From positions 1-35,130 of the forward strand of contig JABSOQ010000024.1 in NCBI GenBank assembly GCA_013216195.1: 35,130 nt of DNA, written 5' to 3'. The notes beneath the pieces were generated by a model. That model ran no database searches. It was not told the origin of the DNA and worked only from the letters and a program-made list of their open reading frames with translations. Made by a program: the position numbers and the translations under genes. This document shows positions 14,484-32,482 of this stretch, in pieces (the stretch's first letter is position 1; each line of letters starts with the position of its first letter). Origin of the DNA: Bdellovibrionales bacterium. Lineage in GTDB: Bacteria; Bdellovibrionota; Bdellovibrionia; Bdellovibrionales; UBA1609.

Positions 14484-14510
14484 TCAAGAAACCGTCTGGG
14501 TTCCCGAAAA
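14484..14510 (+). promoter_or_regulatory. Sigma-28 (FliA)-like promoter of flagellin
   Basis: TCAAGAAA (14484-14491), an 11-base spacer, and CCCGAAAA (14503-14510) follow the sigma-28 consensus TAAAGTTT-N11-GCCGATAA in spacing and in the core positions AAG and CCGA.AA. Transcription would start near 14517, about 238 bases before the flagellin ATG. FliA control of flagellin is general in flagellated bacteria, and the gene downstream is a flagellin. Confidence 0.65.
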
Positions 14511-14517
14511 CTAAAGT

Positions 14518-14755
14518 GTCAAAGGCACATGAATGCATTTGGCAAATCGAGAAAAGAGATTTGTTGAACAACTTACAAAGGAGGCTACTCAAGGACGGAA
14601 ATACCGTACACGGAAATGGAAGGAAACAGAAACTTTCCATTTGATTAAGTACCAAAACAAATTTTTGACGGCTCGGATGCCGACCCTACGACAAGGGTTC
14701 TTACAAGGAGGATGAATTATGAAGTTAGATTTTTAAAAATAATTGGAGGTTTTAA
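14518..14755 (+). other. Long flagellin leader with a five-codon mini-ORF
   Basis: This is the predicted 5' untranslated region of flagellin. It holds a perfect Shine-Dalgarno AAGGAGG (14705-14711) seven bases before a tiny frame, MKLDF-stop (14719-14736), which ends 19 bases before the flagellin start. Another frame of 60 codons (14533-14715, start preceded by AAAGG) gives a basic peptide that may be an accident. A short hairpin CCCT/AGGG lies at 14693-14698 and nearby bases. The leader could control translation of flagellin. The rest of the gap back to 14322 holds the promoter and the palindrome listed separately, and nothing else I can identify. Confidence 0.4.
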
Positions 14756-15908: not shown

Positions 15909-16655
15909 ATGGCCAAGAAGAAAGCAACAAAGAAGAAAGCTGCTAAAAAAACAGCCAAAAAGAAGACCACTAAGAAAAAGACAGCCAAGAAGGCCACCAA
16001 GAAAAAGGTGACCAAAAAGAAGGCAGCTAAAAAGGCCACAAAAAAGAAAGCGGCCAAGAAAACCAAAAAGAAAGTAGCCAAAAAAGCTACGAAAAAGAAG
16101 GCTACCAAAAAGAAGGCCACCAAAAAAAAGACGGCCAAAAAGGCAACTAAGAAAAAAGCTGCGAAGAAGGCTACCAAAAAGAAAGCCACTAAAAAGAAAG
16201 TAGCGAAAAAGGCCACCAAAAAGAAGGCGGCCAAGAAAACCACTAAAAAAGCTGCGAAGAAGACCACAAAGAAAGCCGCGGCAAAGAAAACTACAAAAAA
16301 GGCCGCTGCAGACACCAAACCGAAGAAGCCAGAAAAGCCGAAGGTTCCAAGCCTTGAGGAGATTGCAGCAGACTCAACTCAACTCATAGCTTCGGGTAAC
16401 CCCTTTATTGTAAAAGATCAAAGAGACAGCGCTCCAGTCAATGAGGCTAGCGAGGACGCTGCCGACCTACCTCCCGCTGAATTTGAGGAGTACACTGAAG
16501 ATGAAGACTTGGAAGCGAGCTTCGAGAGTGTGAGTGACCAAATGGATGAGTCTCTCGACCCTGTCGATGAGGCTGACGAAGACGGTTTCGATGATCTCGA
16601 GGACGATGACACTATGATGGATGTCGAAGACGATGATGAAGGTGGGTACTTCTGA
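15909..16655 (+). CDS. Histone H1-like lysine-rich protein with acidic tail
   Basis: A 248-residue protein of two opposite halves. Residues 1 to about 135 consist almost only of Lys, Ala, Thr and Val in repeats such as KKAAKKATKKK, as in the C-terminal tail of eukaryotic histone H1 and bacterial H1-like proteins. Residues from about 165 to the end are strongly acidic (EEYTEDEDLEA, DDLEDDDTMMD, ending EGGYF). The basic half should bind DNA or RNA without sequence preference. The acidic half could fold back on it, bind partners or limit DNA binding. A Shine-Dalgarno GAGGAG precedes the ATG, and a strong terminator follows. A role in nucleoid compaction is inferred from composition. Repeats make the exact length prone to assembly error. 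Confidence 0.85.
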   Translation: MAKKKATKKKAAKKTAKKKTTKKKTAKKATKKKVTKKKAAKKATKKKAAKKTKKKVAKKATKKKATKKKATKKKTAKKATKKKAAKKATKKKATKKKVAKKATKKKAAKKTTKKAAKKTTKKAAAKKTTKKAAADTKPKKPEKPKVPSLEEIAADSTQLIASGNPFIVKDQRDSAPVNEASEDAADLPPAEFEEYTEDEDLEASFESVSDQMDESLDPVDEADEDGFDDLEDDDTMMDVEDDDEGGYF

Positions 16656-22448: not shown

Positions 22449-24356
22449 TTAGAATACCGATTCATCAGACCTTTGGTAGTCGATAAAATAGATACGACGA
22501 GCCAGTTGCCAGCTCTTGTCTTCATCTTGATGAAACATCAGAAGAGGGTAAACAAAGGTGGCTGACCCTTCTCTTCCCCAAAAACCAGGCTCCTTGGCTT
22601 GCTCAAAGTAATCATAAACCTCTTCTTCAAAGCTGAGCTCTTCTCGCTCTACCAGTGAACGAAAACGGTCGGGGTCAAAACTCATCACAACTTCGACAAA
22701 CTCAAGCCAACCCTCTACGACTCTGCTATCAGCGAACAACAATCTGGTTAAAAGGCTTGAGTGCTGACGTATTTTCCTTAACAACTTCTGGGAGGTGCCC
22801 TGTGGGTAAACCTGTTGCTGACTGAAACTCCGATCCGCGACGGCGACTTCGCTTGTGCGGTAGAGCAAACTGTGCTGAGCCGCAGTTGCTTTGAGGCTCA
22901 GCATGTTGACGAACTCTACCATGAACTTGTAGCGAAAAAACTCAGTTGAGAAACCGGGCTCAAAACGATCGATCTCGTCGATAAGCTTAAAGTAGCTCCA
23001 AGTCATGTCTTCCGTCATTTGAGCATATTCAAAAAGACCGGCATAAAGGCCGTCATAATCTCGAGCTTCACCCCGAAGTTGAGCATCATGAGAAAGCTCG
23101 CCAATAACCCTCGCCGTTGAGAGCCATTGATCACCAACATCGATCATGCCCTTTTGAAACGGCATCTGTAGCAACCAATAAATCGGAGATTGCTCAATCA
23201 CTCGAATGGCAAACTTCTGCATACCAAAATCAGATTTTTGGGCCAAATCGAGAGCTAGCTTTAGCAAGAACCGATTGAAGATGATTGTCTCTGTTGGTCT
23301 GAAGGTGAAAATGCGCTGGTTTGAAATAAGACCTAGAAAGTAACTGAGCTTGAAGCCCGTATCAAAACTCGGGTCTCTGGCAAATGCCTCAAAAATTTGT
23401 AATATCTTGATTGGTAATGCGTTTGGCTCATAATTGGGCAAACCGGCTTCTGCTAGCTGCTCCCATTGATCAATAGGAATCGGGCTATCAAACAAGTCGA
23501 GTACAGCCAGTTTCTGCTGAGCTCCCATCTTCTTCCAAGCCCTGAAGTTTTTCTTTCGCCACGCACTCTCTTCATGAACTTTGGTGTTCAGCACCAAAGA
23601 GACCTCGCCAACAAAAGCCTCAAGTGGCCCAGAATCGGTTTCAACTCGCTCGGCGAAGCCTCTGTTGTCAGCCATCATTCCTTTTTGTACGCCTGTTGGG
23701 CCATGAATACCATGGGGCTGATTGAATGCGGGGTAAGCTGAAATCAAGCGCCCACTTCTTTTGTCGACAGCAATTTTCACGTTGATTTCTGTCTCGTCTG
23801 TGCGGGTTACCTGGGCTTCAAACAGAAGGGCCCACCCCTTATCTTCCATAGCCCCTTGTTGAAATACAGCCTTGATGATCTCTTCGAGCTCGTCCTGATC
23901 CATGTCTCTTGGGAACAGTGTCTTCCAAAGATAACCACCATTGTGATTGATATCAGTCATCAACAAAGACTTTTTCTGAGCGGTGTTAAATGCCGAGTTT
24001 GGTAGTCGCACATGCCCCACACCATTGATAGCGTTTTGCATCACAAAGTACCAAGAACCCAGTGTCTTATCTGCACTGTCGACCTCGATCTTCTTAGTGC
24101 CGAGCTCAAAAATATCGTCTCTTTTTGCCATAAAAGCTTCTAGCCCTGCATAAGTGTGCATTCCGCCCTTCAGCCAAGCCCTCTTGGTAGTTGGGTTCTG
24201 CCCAAAATCACCTTGTAAGATGTGTTTTAGGGCTTTTTCAGTGATGACAATTTCTGTTGGTCGCCTGTGCATCTCATCGACACAAGACACTGTAGGTTTC
24301 GGGTTAGCCTGGGCCGAAAGCGCTACAAACAGCACTGTAAGAAGCAACCATTTCAT
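22449..24356 (-). CDS. Exported protein with N-terminal EndoU-like nuclease domain
   Basis: A 635-residue protein with a clear signal peptide (MKWLLLTVLFVALSAQA). Residues 36-210 resemble the bacterial EndoU RNase domain of polymorphic toxins: KHILQGDF with His45, KGGMHTYAGLEAF with His67, NGVGHVRLP, KTLFPRD with Lys145, a DELEEIIKAVF helix and SGRLISAYPAFNQ. Two histidines and a lysine form the EndoU active site. The remaining ~420 residues match no family I know, look helical and may serve as a delivery or binding part. Unlike usual toxins the nuclease is at the N-terminus, and no small immunity gene lies beside it. The sigma-54 promoter at 24369-24384 gives a nearly leaderless start. Homology is judged from motifs by eye. 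Confidence 0.8.
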   Translation of the reverse strand: MKWLLLTVLFVALSAQANPKPTVSCVDEMHRRPTEIVITEKALKHILQGDFGQNPTTKRAWLKGGMHTYAGLEAFMAKRDDIFELGTKKIEVDSADKTLGSWYFVMQNAINGVGHVRLPNSAFNTAQKKSLLMTDINHNGGYLWKTLFPRDMDQDELEEIIKAVFQQGAMEDKGWALLFEAQVTRTDETEINVKIAVDKRSGRLISAYPAFNQPHGIHGPTGVQKGMMADNRGFAERVETDSGPLEAFVGEVSLVLNTKVHEESAWRKKNFRAWKKMGAQQKLAVLDLFDSPIPIDQWEQLAEAGLPNYEPNALPIKILQIFEAFARDPSFDTGFKLSYFLGLISNQRIFTFRPTETIIFNRFLLKLALDLAQKSDFGMQKFAIRVIEQSPIYWLLQMPFQKGMIDVGDQWLSTARVIGELSHDAQLRGEARDYDGLYAGLFEYAQMTEDMTWSYFKLIDEIDRFEPGFSTEFFRYKFMVEFVNMLSLKATAAQHSLLYRTSEVAVADRSFSQQQVYPQGTSQKLLRKIRQHSSLLTRLLFADSRVVEGWLEFVEVVMSFDPDRFRSLVEREELSFEEEVYDYFEQAKEPGFWGREGSATFVYPLLMFHQDEDKSWQLARRIYFIDYQRSDESVF

Positions 24357-25142: not shown

Positions 25143-25170
25143 TTAAGTACTTAGGTAGTGATCCCGATAA
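25143..25170 (+). promoter_or_regulatory. Sigma-28 (FliA)-like promoter of the FecR-domain gene
   Basis: TTAAGTAC (25143-25150), a 12-base spacer, and CCCGATAA (25163-25170) match the sigma-28 consensus well: the -10 differs at one base of eight, and the -35 keeps T.AAGT. The form resembles the flagellin promoter at 14484-14510, which also has T-pyrimidine-AAG and CCCGA.AA. The spacer is one base longer than usual. Transcription would start near 25178, about 38 bases before the ATG. Confidence 0.55.
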
Positions 25171-25215
25171 CACTATGAACATTCATGGCCGTAGTTTCAC
25201 GTTGGAGGTGGCCTA

Positions 25216-26643
25216 ATGAGATCTTTAGCAGCGATGCTAATAGGTTTGAGCTTCGTAGTCTTATCACCTTCTTTTGCATTCGCAAAAGGCCACGGCGTAT
25301 TCCGAGTGGTTAAAGGTGATGTGAAAGTTCAGAGTGCCAAGACTGGCAAAACCAAAAAGGCGAAGATCGGCCAAAAGGTCTTTCCAAAAGATACGGTGAT
25401 CTCTGGTGAAAAGTCTCGAGCCAAGATCATAATGGTCGACAAAAACGTTCTCAATATCTCACCAAATTCTAAAATCGAAATCGAAGCTTACGAGTACGAG
25501 CCGTCGAAGAAAAAGAAAAATGTTTTACTGAATGTGATCTACGGTAAGGTCAGATCTAAGGTGAAGCAAAAGTACGATGGCAAAGGGAACAAGTTTCAGG
25601 TGAAAACGAAGTCTGCTGTTGCCGGTGTACGTGGTACAGATTTCGTAACAGGTTATGACCCTACCAGCCGCCAATCTACAGTTGTGACATTTGAAGGTAA
25701 AGTGCAATTCGGTACACCTGGAGTGGGTGGAACGATCCAAAATGCTGTTGCCGTGAATGCTGGTCAAATTGCGAATCAAGCTGGTAACGCTTCAGTTGGC
25801 CAGCCAAGGTCAGTGCCTAGACAGCAATTAGCTGCCATGGATAATGAAACCAATGCCGACACGTCTTCAGCTGGCGGCTCAGATGAGCGACAGCCGTCTA
25901 ACTCACCTAATGAGTCGAATGACAAGGGTGAGAACTCTGATGACAAAGGCAAAGATGGAGACGCTAAAGGTAGCGACACCAAGTCTGAGGGCGGTGACGC
26001 TAAAACCGAGGGCGGTGACAACAAGGCTGAGGCAGGCGATGCCAAAGCAGATGGTGACAATAAAAGTTCAACTGGCGAAGCAAAAGCCGAAGGAAATGAG
26101 AAGGGACCAGCAAAGGGGAATGCCCAGGCCGGCAACAATGGTAACGGGGGTCGTTCTGGCGCGAATCGAGCGCCAGCAGCTTCCACCGGTGGGGAATCAG
26201 GGGGCCCCGCCGGTGGAGATTCTTCTGCAAATGGTGGGAGCACCACAGCAGAAAATACTGACGGTGGCCAAAAATCAGGGCCAGCCAGGGGCGGCCCGCG
26301 CCGTGGACCAGCGAGTGTTGGACCACGACCACGAGTCACTGTCGGAACACCTGCCACAGGGGCAGTAACAGCGGGACCAGCCACTAACGTCGGTGGCCCC
26401 TCACCTGATGTCGGTGGGACCGGGCCAGACGTAAGCCGAACTCCTGCCGCCGGTCTAGCTCCGCCGCCACCACCGCCACCTGTACCCGAGACACCTTTTC
26501 TACCTGGCGACTCTTTTCAACCTCCACCCGTTGCTGATGTTATTGGCAATGTTCCCGACGTTGGTGAGATTTGCGGTCAGATATGTAACGAAACCATCAT
26601 TGATGGCACAGCTCGCTTGATCATCAATATTCAAGGTAATTAG
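25216..26643 (+). CDS. Exported FecR-domain protein with low-complexity tail
   Basis: A 475-residue protein with a signal peptide (ending SFAFAKG). Residues 25-190 are a FecR domain: GVFRVVKGDVKVQ, a FPKDTVISGEKSRAKI strand, LNISPNSKIEIE, and VKTKSAVAGVRGTDFV before VVTFEGKVQF. There is no cytoplasmic anti-sigma part, so this is the periplasmic scaffold type rather than the iron regulator. Then comes a charged repeat region (GDAKTEGGDNKAEAGDAK-like units, about 235-300), a Gly/Pro/Ala-rich region and a final segment with CGQIC. GGAGGT stands eight bases before the ATG. A sigma-28-like promoter precedes it and a terminator follows. FecR proteins of this kind often sit with TPR/barrel proteins such as the next gene, suggesting a shared envelope role. 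Confidence 0.88.
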   Translation: MRSLAAMLIGLSFVVLSPSFAFAKGHGVFRVVKGDVKVQSAKTGKTKKAKIGQKVFPKDTVISGEKSRAKIIMVDKNVLNISPNSKIEIEAYEYEPSKKKKNVLLNVIYGKVRSKVKQKYDGKGNKFQVKTKSAVAGVRGTDFVTGYDPTSRQSTVVTFEGKVQFGTPGVGGTIQNAVAVNAGQIANQAGNASVGQPRSVPRQQLAAMDNETNADTSSAGGSDERQPSNSPNESNDKGENSDDKGKDGDAKGSDTKSEGGDAKTEGGDNKAEAGDAKADGDNKSSTGEAKAEGNEKGPAKGNAQAGNNGNGGRSGANRAPAASTGGESGGPAGGDSSANGGSTTAENTDGGQKSGPARGGPRRGPASVGPRPRVTVGTPATGAVTAGPATNVGGPSPDVGGTGPDVSRTPAAGLAPPPPPPPVPETPFLPGDSFQPPPVADVIGNVPDVGEICGQICNETIIDGTARLIINIQGN

Positions 26644-26685
26644 AGCAAGACAAACGTCTAGCCCTAGAACTACCCCCGACGAAAT

Positions 26686-26719
26686 AAGGGTTCTCTCCGC
26701 ACAGAGGCCCTTTTTTTTT
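26686..26719 (+). terminator. Rho-independent terminator after the FecR-domain gene
   Basis: AAGGG and CTCT on one arm pair with AGAG and CCCTT on the other, with two unpaired T on one side, one unpaired G on the other and a six-base loop. A run of nine T follows. It lies between the FecR gene and the TPR-barrel gene, so the latter either depends on read-through or has its own promoter. Confidence 0.85.
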
Positions 26720-26776
26720 AAAGATCCCCTATACTTACCATACTGAATAAGTTGAATTTCCTCCAGGAGTTGCACC

Positions 26777-28939
26777 TTGAAGCACCTTGCACTTGCTACG
26801 CTAGTTGTTCTGTTTTCTGCCGCCAGTTTTGCTCAAGAACCTGAACCCATAAAAACTGCAGATCAAAAAAACAGTAGACAAGTCAGCAAGCCGAACAAAA
26901 AATCATCGGCAAAGAAGATTGCTCAGCAGTTCCCTACAACCATTGAGTACGGCAGCGCCTCTTGGAATAGAAACTCTGCGAATATCGATTCGGCCTTTTT
27001 GTTTATTCGCGACAAAAACACGGGCAAAACTGCAAAGGTCGTGCTTGATGAAACGGCTCCCGACTCCTCAACATTTAAAGGTAACTTCTCGCTAGGATGG
27101 GCTAACGACAGCGAAGCGCAGCCAGAAATTTACATCCCTCCGCAGAACCTCGTCGGCCAAAAAGGTATGGAGAAGTTCAAGGCGATGCTTCGCACAGGCA
27201 AATTGAAGCGAAAGCCAGTCGTTTTTCACACTGACCGAGACGGCAGACAGCTGGTCGATGTCTACGACACTAAAGAACAAGCTGTAAAAGCTTACAAAGC
27301 CTTCAAAGACGAGCTCAAAATAGCAGAGCGAGAAAAGCAAGCTAAGAAATTGCTGAAGCAGGCCGAAGCAGATAAAGCCACAATAGAAGCCGCAGAAATG
27401 GCTGAAAGAGAACGAAAACTAAAGCAGCTCGAGCTTGAAGCCGCAAAAAGAGAGTCAGCACGTATTCGCCTCGAGCAGCTTGAAAGACAAAAAGCCGAAG
27501 AACGACTAAGAAAACAACAAGCACTGGCTCAAGCGGAGCGAGAGCGACGCAAGGCCCAGGCCAGAAAACTCGGTGAAGAGGGCATGCAGAAGTTCATTGC
27601 CAATGACTTTGCTGGAGCATCAGATTTATTTGCCCAAGCAGTGGAGCTTGATCCTGAAAACAAAGACTACAACTTGAACCATGGTATCGCCCTCTACCGA
27701 CAGACCAAGTATGATGATGCTTTGGTAAAACTCAATGTCGCACCTGACAAGCCTGATCGAATTGCAGAAAAGAAATACTACCTTGGTCTTTGCCATTACA
27801 ATCTGAAGGAGCTCGACCCTGCGATTGAAGACTTTGAATTCGTTCGCGATCAAAACTCTAAGGCCTTTAGTGCTTCCGCAGCTTTTTACTTAGGTCTTCT
27901 ATACATGACAAAAGAGGATTTCAAAAAATCAGAAGAGAACTTTCAATGGGTGCTTGATAACTCCACGAGCCCTGACCTCGATGAACAAGCTGAAAAGTAC
28001 ATTGAAAGTCTCGCAAGCCTAAAAAGGTTTTCAGACAAACGTAAAAAACCCTTCACGCTCAGCGGGATTTTAGGTTTGATGTACGACTCAAACGTTTTGT
28101 TAATACCTTCTGGAGCAGCAGAACAAGATGCTACAGGCTCAGAGGTCGCAGACGTCAGGCTGGTCGCATCAGGAAGCCTTGCTTACCGGGGTGTTTACAG
28201 CAAGAAGCATGAGTTCACTCCAACAGCTTTTTCTTACATGCTCCGCTCGCAGAAAAATGAAGTGTCGCAGGCTGATCCTTTTTTAAATAGTGTCGCCCTA
28301 CCCTACACTTACAAAGGCACTGCTTGGAACAAAGGCTACAAGTTCACAATCAAACCCTCCTATGAGGTGGTGAACATGGATGTTAATGAAGACGGCTCGC
28401 AAGAGATTATCATCAGCTCAGCCGTGGTGAACACTGACAACACTTTCGTAATGAGCAAAGACTGGATACAATCGGTGATTTTTGAATTTAGGCAGGATGA
28501 CTCACAAATTGAATCGGCAGTTGGAGACGAAGACCTCGACGCCACCAAATTCACTTTGAAGTCAAAGCACATAAATTTTTTAGACAAAACCCGCAAGAAA
28601 CTTCTCACTTCGTATGCGGCACTGGTGATGAACAATGCTGTCGGGAAGAACCGAACCTACCAAAGGATCGACTTGAGTTCGACTTATATGAAACCTCTCA
28701 ATTGGTGGAAATCAAATTGGACGTTTGGGTTAACCATGTACCAGATTAACTTTGTCGACAACTCTAACAACCGGTCTGACATTAACTACAATCTCGCTAC
28801 TGGCATTTCTAGGCCCATAAACAAATGGCTTAATTGGAGTCTGAACGCAGCGTATATCCAGAACAATTCGACTATTGATACCTTCACCTATTCGCGATAC
28901 ACACTGACATCTAATTTCATAGCAACAACGGATTTCTAA
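26777..28939 (+). CDS. TPR protein with C-terminal outer-membrane beta-barrel
   Basis: A 720-residue protein with a signal peptide (ending SFAQE). After a domain of unknown kind (about 45-180) comes a long charged coiled coil rich in Ala, Glu, Lys and Arg (about 185-275), then TPR repeats (about 275-415; FIANDFAGASDLFAQAVELDPEN, then YYLGLCHYNLKELDPAI). The last 300 residues have alternating strands rich in aromatic and polar residues and end in phenylalanine (TTDF), the usual outer-membrane barrel signature. The layout recalls TPR-plus-barrel export proteins such as the SLAM type, without proof of that role. The start is TTG, seven bases after AGGAG. It stands behind the FecR gene and 4 bases before the next gene. 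Confidence 0.85.
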   Translation: MKHLALATLVVLFSAASFAQEPEPIKTADQKNSRQVSKPNKKSSAKKIAQQFPTTIEYGSASWNRNSANIDSAFLFIRDKNTGKTAKVVLDETAPDSSTFKGNFSLGWANDSEAQPEIYIPPQNLVGQKGMEKFKAMLRTGKLKRKPVVFHTDRDGRQLVDVYDTKEQAVKAYKAFKDELKIAEREKQAKKLLKQAEADKATIEAAEMAERERKLKQLELEAAKRESARIRLEQLERQKAEERLRKQQALAQAERERRKAQARKLGEEGMQKFIANDFAGASDLFAQAVELDPENKDYNLNHGIALYRQTKYDDALVKLNVAPDKPDRIAEKKYYLGLCHYNLKELDPAIEDFEFVRDQNSKAFSASAAFYLGLLYMTKEDFKKSEENFQWVLDNSTSPDLDEQAEKYIESLASLKRFSDKRKKPFTLSGILGLMYDSNVLLIPSGAAEQDATGSEVADVRLVASGSLAYRGVYSKKHEFTPTAFSYMLRSQKNEVSQADPFLNSVALPYTYKGTAWNKGYKFTIKPSYEVVNMDVNEDGSQEIIISSAVVNTDNTFVMSKDWIQSVIFEFRQDDSQIESAVGDEDLDATKFTLKSKHINFLDKTRKKLLTSYAALVMNNAVGKNRTYQRIDLSSTYMKPLNWWKSNWTFGLTMYQINFVDNSNNRSDINYNLATGISRPINKWLNWSLNAAYIQNNSTIDTFTYSRYTLTSNFIATTDF

Positions 28940-28943
28940 TAAA

Positions 28944-29624
28944 ATGCTAAATCGAGTTACTGATCGAATTTCAACGTTCGAATACATGGCCTACCCAACG
29001 CCAGTAACTCCTATGCCGACTCGCACTGTGCTGTATAGCCAAGCCGACGGGAAACTGTTCTTGTTTTCTCCAGGTCCTTTTGATGAAGCAACATTTAAAG
29101 AGCTTGAAAACATGTCGAGTGAGATCATACTCGTTTCACCAAACCTTTTTCATCATATGCATCTTGAAAAGAGTTTTGAGCGCTGGCCACTGGTGGCAAT
29201 TTATGGCCAACCCGCACTGTGGAAACTCAAAAAGCAGCCCTGGATCAAACCTTACCTGAGAGACATTCGAGAGATTCATACTCAGCTGAACACGCAAATG
29301 AAAGCCATGTTCATTCGAGGCATACCTGCATTGGCAGAGACCGTTTTCTATGACAGCGATTCAAAGACTCTCATCGTAACAGACCTGATGTTCAACATGG
29401 ACTCTACAGTGGCTTTTGGCACTCGTCTTTTATTAAGCGCCTTTGGCGCTAACAACAAGCTGGCGCAAAGCAAACTCGTTAGAATGAACACAAAAGACAA
29501 GAGTGCCTACAAAAGCTCGGCTGAGAAGCTGCTAGATCTTGATTTTGCAAGAGTGATTGTTTCACACGGAAATCTTGTCGAAGACGCTCAAGCGTTCAAG
29601 GTTGCCCTCAGCAAAACACTCTGA
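28944..29624 (+). CDS. DUF4336-like protein
   Basis: A 226-residue soluble protein resembling DUF4336, a family with a metallo-beta-lactamase-like fold and unknown activity. Visible marks are LFLFSPGPFDEAT, the SPNLFHHMHL stretch with two histidines, ALAETVFYDSDSKTLIVTDLMFN and a late VSHGNL. The metal-binding HxHxDH motif of true metallo-beta-lactamases is not complete here (only HHMH is seen), so enzyme activity is uncertain. It begins four bases after the TPR-barrel gene without a clear Shine-Dalgarno and is probably translated by coupling. It ends 21 bases before the convergent peptidase gene. Confidence 0.75.
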   Translation: MLNRVTDRISTFEYMAYPTPVTPMPTRTVLYSQADGKLFLFSPGPFDEATFKELENMSSEIILVSPNLFHHMHLEKSFERWPLVAIYGQPALWKLKKQPWIKPYLRDIREIHTQLNTQMKAMFIRGIPALAETVFYDSDSKTLIVTDLMFNMDSTVAFGTRLLLSAFGANNKLAQSKLVRMNTKDKSAYKSSAEKLLDLDFARVIVSHGNLVEDAQAFKVALSKTL

Positions 29625-31846: not shown

Positions 31847-32482
31847 ATGCTGAAAAAGCTTTTGACAATCTGTTTTGCCACTTCAGTTGCCATGTCAACT
31901 GCCTGGACACCCTTAGCTAGCGCCTCTGAGTCCCCTTTGCTTGGTAAGATTCGCCAGGTCAGGGGCTATGCCGCCCGAAAACTGTTACGCAGTTTTCATA
32001 CAGCTCAAACTTCTAAGAAAGAAATGGTACTCGACTTCTACAGGAGGTCAGGTAAAGGCAGTAAAATCAGCGTGAAGGCTCCCCTTCGCTTTCAGACAGG
32101 CCCCTACAAAAGGCTTTTTCTAACTGACACCTTGTTTCGCACCAAGTGCCTTAAAGAGCTTGTGTGGTCAGCCGAGCAATTGAACTCGCACTTTCCTGAA
32201 TTTTCATTTCAGCTAGATGGTCGTATACAAAACTGCAAAAACCTAGAGAAGGGCGTTCAGAGAATTATCGCAAATAAAAGTAAGGTGCGGGCCAATGTCT
32301 CTCGCTTTCATACCCCCATGCACACCATCTACCTCACAAATCGAACTAAGTTCAATCACCACCAAGTCGGAAAAATGGGTCTCTACGTTAACGTCAACAA
32401 GAGCCGCGAGATTCAGAGACGACTTGTTGACTTCAGGGTGGGCGTCAATGACATCACTCACGAGCGCTCGCAAGTATTTTAG
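31847..32482 (+). CDS. Small basic exported protein of unknown function
   Basis: A 211-residue protein with a signal peptide (hydrophobic residues about 5-20, cleavage near ASASES). The mature part is strongly basic (many Lys, Arg and His, such as YAARKLLRSFHTAQ and NRTKFNHHQVGKMG) and has two cysteines (TKCLKE, QNCKN) that may form a disulfide. It resembles no family I know. Basic secreted proteins of this size include nucleases, toxins and surface binders; none can be claimed here. A sigma-54-type promoter precedes it, as for the toxin-like genes at 5605 and 24356. It faces recO at its end, 23 bases away. Confidence 0.8.
   Translation: MLKKLLTICFATSVAMSTAWTPLASASESPLLGKIRQVRGYAARKLLRSFHTAQTSKKEMVLDFYRRSGKGSKISVKAPLRFQTGPYKRLFLTDTLFRTKCLKELVWSAEQLNSHFPEFSFQLDGRIQNCKNLEKGVQRIIANKSKVRANVSRFHTPMHTIYLTNRTKFNHHQVGKMGLYVNVNKSREIQRRLVDFRVGVNDITHERSQVF

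Follow-up and report, generated by a model that had tools for sequence, protein, structure and literature searches.

What does a FecR-domain protein do together with a tetratricopeptide repeat (TPR)-barrel protein when the two genes lie one behind the other, downstream of what looks like a flagellar promoter? We addressed this question for a locus on a 35,130-nucleotide stretch of DNA from a member of the Bdellovibrionales (the whole stretch is called the window here). An earlier note had placed both genes under a sigma-28-like promoter and had proposed their joint expression in the motile phase. For comparison, we used a sample of 58 loci plus the window. Each genome contributed a single FecR locus, except G056, which contributed two; the weaker paralogs of these genomes were set aside, as were genomes whose FecR matches were all weak and two loci with the TPR gene alone (L145 and L146). 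For L106, which yielded no start codon, the start was set at the start of the open frame plus 24 nt. The features of the window locus are listed in Table 1.

TABLE 1 Positions and supporting evidence for features of the FecR/TPR-barrel locus
Feature	Position in window	Strand	Basis
Sigma-28 (FliA-type) promoter: -35 TTAAG (25143-25147), N16, -10 CCGATA (25164-25169)	25143-25170	+	Sequence, published consensus, ortholog conservation
Shine-Dalgarno sequence GGAGG of FecR gene	25204-25208	+	Sequence reading
FecR-domain protein, 475 aa, with signal-peptide-like N-terminus (by eye)	25216-26643	+	Pfam; orthologs in the order
Folded FecR region, residues 27-212	25294-25851	+	AlphaFold pLDDT mostly above 90; Foldseek
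Low-complexity linker, predicted disordered except for a low-confidence helix near its end	25852-26604	+	pLDDT mostly about 40-60
Conserved C-terminal tail with alternating hydrophobic residues, here ARLIINIQGN	26605-26640	+	Tail pattern count
Intrinsic terminator between FecR and TPR-barrel genes	26686-26719	+	Hairpin and run of T; sequence reading
Protein with TPRs and predicted outer-membrane barrel, 720 aa, TTG start	26777-28939	+	Pfam, AlphaFold, structure comparison
Predicted outer-membrane barrel, residues 426-719, 14 strands (own count)	28052-28933	+	AlphaFold model

A conserved sigma-28 promoter precedes the FecR gene

The motif reported in the earlier note, TTAAGTAC-N12-CCCGATAA, is present at 25143-25170, where TTAAG-N16-CCGATAA agrees at 11 of 11 positions with the attack-phase (FliA, sigma-28) consensus of Bdellovibrio. 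That consensus, TTAAG-N16-CCGATA, was published for the FliA attack-phase regulon of Bdellovibrio bacteriovorus (PMC3627812). None of 100 shuffles of the window contained the core pattern TAAGTAC-N11..14-CCGATAA, and this is the only site of the TAAGTAC form in the 4.1-Mb genome. By itself, the motif is weak evidence, since TAAG-N16-CCGATA occurred 12 times in the same genome versus 9 times for a reversed control. What makes the site convincing is its conservation upstream of FecR orthologs. A site with the N16 spacer and at least 9 of 11 matching positions was found in 37 of 59 FecR upstream regions (the window and the 58 loci). When 16 other spacers were tried on the same regions, 0 to 10 reached this score, and 5 of the 59 did so on the reverse strand. 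Shuffling the regions 100 times gave a mean of 2.04 and a maximum of 6, versus the 37 observed. The site lies 34 to 103 nt before the start codon in 35 of the 37 loci (143 and 246 nt in the other two), and 25 of the 29 genera outside family f8 have one.

Sigma-28 control of the FecR gene, as the earlier note had claimed, gains support from this conservation across families, from the FliA encoded in the window genome (TIGR02479, 273 bits; cut-off, 189.6), and from the precedent of fliL in B. bacteriovorus, where a substitution in the -10 element of the predicted FliA site stopped expression (PMC11323537). The claim does not extend to Bdellovibrio itself. In family f8, which we take to be that of Bdellovibrio, 11 of 12 loci lack a site of at least 9/11 upstream of the FecR gene, and the best match in B. 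bacteriovorus kdesi (L226) is 8/11. A search of the f8 loci for alternative promoters returned nothing beyond weak sigma-70 and sigma-54 likenesses.

The proposed close resemblance to the flagellin promoter in the window proved wrong. Upstream of the flagellin gene (14756), TTAAGTAC occurs at 14645, yet there is no CCGATA at N16. The best N16 match in the 400 bases upstream is 7/11, and we rejected a shared promoter type on this ground. A different arrangement, TCAAG-N15-CCGAAA, scores 9/11 at 14484. Over 58 genomes, the pattern TYAAGT-N15-CCGAWA was enriched in some (e.g., G063, 11 versus 1 for the reversed control), and in the window genome it was not (3 versus 6).

A terminator separates the two genes

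Of the claim that one promoter serves both genes, the half concerning the FecR gene holds and the half concerning the TPR-barrel gene does not, as the latter has no sigma-28 site of its own in the window. A site of at least 9/11 occurred in only 1 of 44 intergenic gaps, and we rejected the possibility that the TPR-barrel gene is separately controlled in this way. Joint expression thus depends on read-through from the FecR gene or on an unseen second promoter. The claimed terminator, a hairpin followed by a run of T, is present in the sequence and missing from the list of an automated scanner. Terminators were found in 14 of the 44 FecR/TPR gaps, window included, compared with 1.1 in base-shuffled gaps, a control built from single-base shuffles in which dinucleotides are not kept. 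When folded whole, the 151-nt intergenic RNA was unremarkable (z = -0.61). Given this recurring terminator between the genes, it is plausible that read-through past it sets the ratio of the FecR protein to the TPR-barrel protein.

Predicted structures of the two proteins

The FecR domain named in the earlier note was recovered by Pfam (58.6 bits; cut-off, 24), and in the AlphaFold model its fold resembles the signaling domains of PupR and BDI_1681 (Foldseek). The linker that follows is poorly conserved in the ortholog alignment. The pattern of the C-terminal tail was found in 49 of 56 proteins (those of the loci that exceed 250 aa, plus that of the window). Shuffled tails gave a mean of 12.5, and linker windows gave 0.2 among proteins over 300 aa, a mild control, as hydrophobic residues are scarce in the linker.

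A PupR-like fold would suit classical FecR regulation, in which the protein would act on an ECF sigma factor as its anti-sigma protein or as its regulator, on the model of iron-citrate signaling. A Leptospira anti-sigma model, matched weakly (E = 0.005; 16 bits versus a cut-off of 200), points in the same direction. We consider this reading highly improbable. Unlike FecR-type anti-sigma proteins, the window protein lacks a cytoplasmic anti-sigma domain followed by a membrane helix: FecR is the sole Pfam family above cut-off, and in the AlphaFold model a short, signal-peptide-like helix alone precedes it. Unlike FecR-type cell-surface signaling, the locus has no adjacent ECF sigma factor; no sigma factor of any kind was found among the 17 window proteins scanned, which include both direct neighbors. 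We rejected the anti-sigma reading on these two grounds. In addition, the partner is a TPR-barrel protein and not a TonB-dependent receptor.

For this partner, the claimed TPRs (TPR_2, 35.3 bits; cut-off, 27) and, as a prediction, the barrel (AlphaFold model with a mean pLDDT of 87) were both borne out. The TPRs (residues 252-423) follow an N-terminal beta domain (54-162) and a coiled coil (166-249). By eye, the candidates for exported parts have signal-peptide-like N-termini. Periplasmic TPRs before an outer-membrane barrel are also the layout of the export channels BcsC and PelB, as well as of PgaA. BcsC was the first Foldseek match to the model, and PelB was also among the matches listed. 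Accordingly, the protein could be an exporter, secreting either a polymer in the manner of BcsC, PgaA, and PelB or, like Slam, the FecR protein, which would then end up on the surface. The long disordered linker and conserved tail of the FecR protein are features that a cargo could have, and the FecR part matches Leptospira surface-protein models, far below cut-off. However, several observations make export an unlikely role. By our own count, the model has 14 strands, compared with 16 in barrels of BcsC/PgaA-type exporters, and among the matches listed, the predicted barrel is closest to CymA/OmpG (VIA Z about 22; rmsd, 3.1 to 3.5; about 270 residues). Also unlike those systems, the 17 window proteins scanned include no glycosyltransferase or polymer synthase. 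As for Slam (type XI secretion), which belongs to the Slam/DUF560 sequence family, the Slam Pfam family was not matched at an E value of 0.01 or better, and no Slam entry was among the matches listed, 50 in each of two structure comparisons, although a listing of this length is no argument against Slam. A profile of the TPR-barrel protein compared with solved structures had 60 matches listed, which matched the TPR part.

The pair co-occurs with a CHASE2 cyclase

Within the order Bdellovibrionales, the FecR and TPR-barrel genes form an old unit of two genes. The TPR-barrel gene is downstream of the FecR gene in 57 of 58 loci, within 361 nt in 55 of them, and B. bacteriovorus kdesi carries the pair. 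We found no published description of the module in the literature searched (FecR, CHASE2, Bdellovibrio). Among 98 genomes, with kinship ignored, the pair and one CHASE2-type adenylyl cyclase were both present in 60, both absent in 34, and found singly in 4. These counts used TPR-barrel matches of E = 1e-15 or better and cyclase matches of E = 1e-100 or better, several of which are contig-end fragments. Within family f1 alone, the corresponding numbers were 24, 21, and 2, and the barrel gene and cyclase were on different contigs in 24 of 24 genomes; in family f8, the pair is near the cyclase gene. One genome that is 99% complete (G023) has the cyclase and lacks the pair. In genus g37, 9 of 15 sampled genomes have neither, so the module is not a universal prey sensor.

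The cyclase of the window genome (G000, contig C179; CHASE2, 142 bits; Guanylate_cyc, 75 bits) is encoded on a contig other than that of the pair and not directly downstream of it. Its upstream region reaches 7/11 for the sigma-28 site, and only 2 of 30 cyclase upstream regions reach at least 9/11; the idea that the cyclase is under sigma-28 control as well was rejected. No sigma-28 site was seen where pair and cyclase gene are neighbors, an arrangement found in Bdellovibrio-like genomes. Together, these patterns suggest that a non-flagellar envelope module was kept under the flagellar sigma factor over several families and that this control was lost where the module was newly placed.

The module could instead be an accessory of the flagellum or its sheath that, for instance, helps it pass the outer membrane or forms part of a periplasmic structure associated with the motor. 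Such a role would explain both the sigma-28 promoter of the FecR gene and the confinement of the barrel gene to genomes with flagellin (62 of 83, versus 0 of 15 without). Moreover, all 6 loci of genus g4 have a flagellin gene immediately upstream of the pair. We nevertheless doubt it, given that 21 of the 83 flagellin-bearing genomes lack the barrel gene and that the cyclase tracks this gene more closely than flagellin does. Furthermore, outside the order, a CHASE2 cyclase gene is accompanied by a FecR or barrel gene on four stretches of plasmid DNA, none of which has an annotated flagellar gene.

Fused relatives outside the order

These stretches were drawn from 603 plasmid records that contain a related cyclase; 30 of the records were listed and 4 neighborhoods examined. 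A plasmid search with the TPR-barrel protein gave no match. In Methylocystis, a CHASE2 cyclase gene directly follows the gene of a 1,221-aa protein that combines FecR and TPRs with some 600 more residues; the C-terminal part of this protein matched no barrel family. On pSymB of Sinorhizobium meliloti, a protein of about 1,200 aa with FecR and TPRs is encoded directly upstream of a 649-aa CHASE2 cyclase. Judging from its length, its replicon, and the published barrel position, this protein is presumably NsrA. NsrA is described as an outer-membrane barrel receptor needed for CHASE2-cyclase signaling, with the barrel at residues 600-1200 (PMC7529298, PMC13001267). BLAST matches of the window proteins to the Sinorhizobium fusion were not significant (E = 0.066 and 0.036), and the two have in common only Pfam FecR and generic TPRs.

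DISCUSSION

We think that the pair is probably a split, NsrA-like receptor of the motile phase that signals via FecR to a CHASE2 cyclase; swimming cells may use it to sense something outside. The promoter and the co-occurrence of pair and cyclase are established at the level of sequence; the signaling is inferred. FliA would transcribe the FecR gene from the conserved site, and the terminator would limit transcription into the TPR-barrel gene, so that the FecR protein may outnumber the barrel. The barrel is predicted to sit in the outer membrane, its TPR and N-terminal domains lying in the periplasm. A stimulus acting on the barrel at the surface would be passed through these domains to the exported FecR protein, perhaps docked via its conserved C-terminal strand, and on to the periplasmic CHASE2 domain of the inner-membrane adenylyl cyclase encoded on contig C179. 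This signal would change cAMP, as the close co-occurrence and the fused architectures elsewhere lead us to propose. The whole would work as a split Sinorhizobium NsrA-CHASE2 cyclase system under flagellar sigma control. A more specific version is tentative: in this Bdellovibrionales module, the terminator would split NsrA into a diffusible FecR messenger made in surplus and a barrel sensor that is scarcer, with FliA timing the route from surface or prey sensing to cAMP.

The Bdellovibrio group is known for its predators, and in this group, the pair is a candidate route from stimulus to cAMP. Bd1971 is a c-di-GMP phosphodiesterase that is reportedly stimulated by cAMP, and the relevant sections of that report name no input to the cyclases (PMC6717892). 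If the more specific version is right, flagellar gene control would be tied to cAMP and then, via cAMP-stimulated Bd1971-like enzymes, to c-di-GMP. The pair is open to test in a named culture, B. bacteriovorus kdesi.

Among known systems, the FliA attack-phase regulon of B. bacteriovorus shares its consensus with the window promoter (PMC3627812) and differs in that the f8 copies of the pair, with one exception, lack the site. The LysM-FecR and CHASE2 histidine kinase operon of Burkholderia likewise pairs a FecR protein with a CHASE2 sensor. However, its output is a histidine kinase, its FecR protein has a LysM domain, and the word "barrel" is absent from the main text of the report (PMC5192318). 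The closest parallel that we propose is NsrA with CyaK, CyaD1, and CyaD2 of S. meliloti, which has FecR, TPRs, a barrel, and a CHASE2-Guanylate_cyc partner (PMC7529298, PMC13001267). Unlike NsrA, which is one polypeptide, the window system divides these parts between two genes, adds a long linker and tail to the FecR protein and an N-terminal beta domain and coiled coil to the barrel protein, and combines an unlinked cyclase with a sigma-28 promoter.

Conserved sigma-28 site upstream of the FecR gene

The earlier note had placed a FecR-domain gene and the TPR-barrel gene that follows it (together, the pair) under a sigma-28-like promoter, TTAAGTAC-N12-CCCGATAA, and direct reading of the sequence found this site where it had been claimed. 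Recast as TTAAG-N16-CCGATA, the site is identical to the attack-phase FliA (sigma-28) consensus of Bdellovibrio bacteriovorus, which is carried by 92 of 140 attack-phase promoters according to excerpts of the published study (PMC3627812). Its end and the FecR start codon are 45 nt apart, and FliA is encoded in the same genome. In a single genome, the motif by itself carries little weight: TAAG-N16-CCGATA occurs 12 times, versus 9 times for a reversed control. Six of the 12 copies lie within 200 nt upstream of a frame 90 aa or longer (two of these are only 7 nt off), and four fall inside long frames.

We therefore turn to orthologs, scoring 59 FecR upstream regions (the window and 58 loci of relatives) against the consensus with a threshold of 9/11 matches at spacer 16. 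Thirty-seven regions carried a site, while the 16 other spacers within 8 to 24 yielded 0 to 10 regions and the reverse strand yielded 5. Across 100 dinucleotide shuffles of the same regions, an average of 2.04 regions reached the threshold and never more than 6 did; in control stretches taken within either gene, ahead of the TPR gene or downstream, the count was 1 to 4. The distance from site to start codon was 34 to 103 nt in 35 of the 37 regions. Judged from sequence, it is this conservation that decides for a predicted promoter beyond chance.

Features of the pair and its surroundings (window coordinates)
Feature	Position	Strand	Description
Site upstream of flagellin gene	14484-14509		9/11 sigma-28-like match, spacer 15
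Element 5' of flagellin gene	14650-14675		AAA-CAAATTTTT-AC-like, by eye
Flagellin gene	14756
Lysine-rich frame	15909-16655
Frame	22449-24356		635 aa
Sigma-28 site	25143-25170
Ribosome site	before 25216	+	GGAGG, read from sequence
FecR gene	25216-26643	+	475 aa
FecR protein, N-terminus			signal-peptide-like, by eye
FecR region	residues 27-212		well folded in predicted structure; resembles PupR and BDI_1681 signalling domains in structure comparison
FecR protein, linker			long; disordered in predicted structure
FecR protein, C-terminal tail			short, conserved
Terminator-like signal	26686-26719		hairpin and run of nine T
TPR-barrel gene	26777-28939	+	720 aa; N-terminal beta domain, coiled coil, TPRs, predicted barrel (structure model)
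Frame	28944-29624		226 aa; start 4 nt past TPR-barrel stop
Frame	31847-32482		211 aa

The presence or absence of the site follows the location of the pair. Where XerC, HAD, RecO or flagellin genes lie close by, 32 of 41 loci carry a site; where a gene for a CHASE2 cyclase, an inner-membrane adenylyl cyclase, lies within about 4 kb, none of 10 does. By taxonomy, 25 of 29 genera outside family f8 have the site and 11 of 12 f8 loci lack it; we take f8 to be the family of Bdellovibrio because B. bacteriovorus kdesi (locus L226) shares gene order with f8 loci. The sole f8 locus near XerC and RecO (L115) scores 9, and a non-f8 locus adjoining the cyclase (L143) scores 7. Scores of 7 or 8 were obtained for kdesi and nine more cyclase-near loci, at least two of which (L229 and L235) duplicate L139 and L142. 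One pair with RecO downstream (L200) stands in a record titled as a Streptomyces griseus MAG, a title that is apparently mislabelled.

Organization of the pair and its products

The FecR gene is followed by the TPR-barrel gene in 57 of 58 loci, with a gap of at most 361 nt in 55. The terminator that had been proposed to separate the two genes is also there, and terminator-like signals occur in 14 of 44 such gaps (window included); after base shuffling, 1.1 gaps on average and never more than 4 had such a signal. No sigma-28 site at 9/11 was found in 43 of the 44 gaps. With a terminator and site-free gaps, co-expression of the TPR-barrel gene with the FecR gene would therefore need read-through or another promoter. 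The 226-aa frame, whose similarity to DUF4336 is weak and below the cut-off, may share a transcript with the TPR-barrel gene here. At an E threshold of 0.01, Pfam gave no match for the 635-aa and 211-aa frames.

The C-terminal tail pattern is present in 49 of 56 FecR proteins; shuffled tails matched it in 12.5 cases on average and linker windows in 0.2. By our own count in the model, the predicted barrel of the TPR-barrel protein has 14 strands. Its nearest structures among the chains compared are CymA and OmpG (Z about 22), and the best Foldseek match of the protein by E-value is BcsC; we infer a location in the outer membrane. Of 290 genomes sampled from the phylum (a total that is not split into genomes inside and outside the order), a profile of the barrel protein matches 62, each of them either the window's own or labelled with its genus, family or order.

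Co-occurrence with a CHASE2 cyclase

Ten of the 64 loci compared carry, 3' of the pair and facing it, a long gene for a CHASE2 adenylyl cyclase, either adjacent or separated by one or two frames. Should genome G071 be strain HD100, we would guess from gene order that the cyclase adjoining its pair may be Bd2640. The relative in the window's genome, with CHASE2 and Guanylate_cyc domains, is on another contig. Across 98 genomes, barrel gene and cyclase occur together in 60, are both absent from 34, and occur singly in 4, counts that ignore shared ancestry; three of these four are assemblies 57-84% complete, and the fourth (G023) is 99% complete. In family f1 the corresponding counts, likewise ignoring shared ancestry, are 24, 21 and 2, and the two genes are on separate contigs in 24 of the 24 genomes with both. 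Where the genes adjoin, their joint loss may be one event. Flagellin tracks the pair more loosely than the cyclase does: the barrel gene is found in 62 of 83 genomes with flagellin and 0 of 15 without (again ignoring shared ancestry). Genus g37 lacks pair and cyclase alike in 9 of 15 genomes, so the module is no universal prey sensor.

Thirteen of the 15 genomes without detectable flagellin keep FliA above the cut-off (G003, G004, G015, G016, G017, G019, G022, G024, G030, G031, G032, G037 and G042), which suggests a non-flagellar role for FliA in the order Bdellovibrionales. Raw 9/11 sigma-28-like matches with spacer 15 rather than 16 lie upstream of the window's flagellin and of three more flagellins of its genome (L004, L005 and L007). 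By eye, an AAA-CAAATTTTT-AC-like element also stands shortly 5' of flagellin genes in L003 and L008. In five loci of genus g4 (L185, L188, L192, L199 and L209), a flagellin gene lies just 5' of the pair, with a gene for a small lysine-rich protein in between in four of the five; in the window, flagellin and the lysine-rich frame are about 10 kb from the pair.

Comparison with fused relatives, among them a presumed NsrA

Among 30 listed matches to the window genome's cyclase, we examined four plasmid neighbourhoods. FecR genes adjoin the related CHASE2 cyclase in Shinella, Ruegeria and Methylocystis; in Azospirillum the neighbour is a ShlB-type barrel gene, with no FecR match. The gene before FecR in Shinella encodes a TPR protein whose barrel match falls below the cut-off. 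In Methylocystis, one chain runs from FecR through TPRs to about 600 residues without a Pfam match, and the end of its gene and the start of the cyclase share one base. A relative of this fusion on Sinorhizobium meliloti pSymB (39% identity over 99%) has FecR and TPRs, and its gene is followed directly by a CHASE2 cyclase gene. Its frame spans 1219 aa when the earliest possible start is used and was scanned as 1200 aa from an internal start; the annotated Ak57 copy is 1190 aa. From its length, its replicon and the published barrel position, we infer that the pSymB protein is NsrA. Excerpts of the NsrA study describe an outer-membrane receptor required for CHASE2-cyclase signalling, with a barrel at residues 600-1200 (PMC7529298).

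Because FecR and TPRs are fused elsewhere beside the cyclase, analogy argues that both window products may act together and with the cyclase. The FecR protein would touch the barrel and the CHASE2 domain, and signalling by the pair would alter cAMP. A downstream route is present in Bdellovibrio, where, according to one study, Bd1971 is a cAMP-stimulated c-di-GMP phosphodiesterase and bd2640 is one of the adenylate cyclases annotated in HD100 (PMC6717892). The fusion does not make the window pair members of the NsrA family, and BLAST of the window proteins against the S. meliloti fusion gave no significant similarity. We think that the two genes of the pair encode a split, NsrA-like receptor produced in the motile phase.
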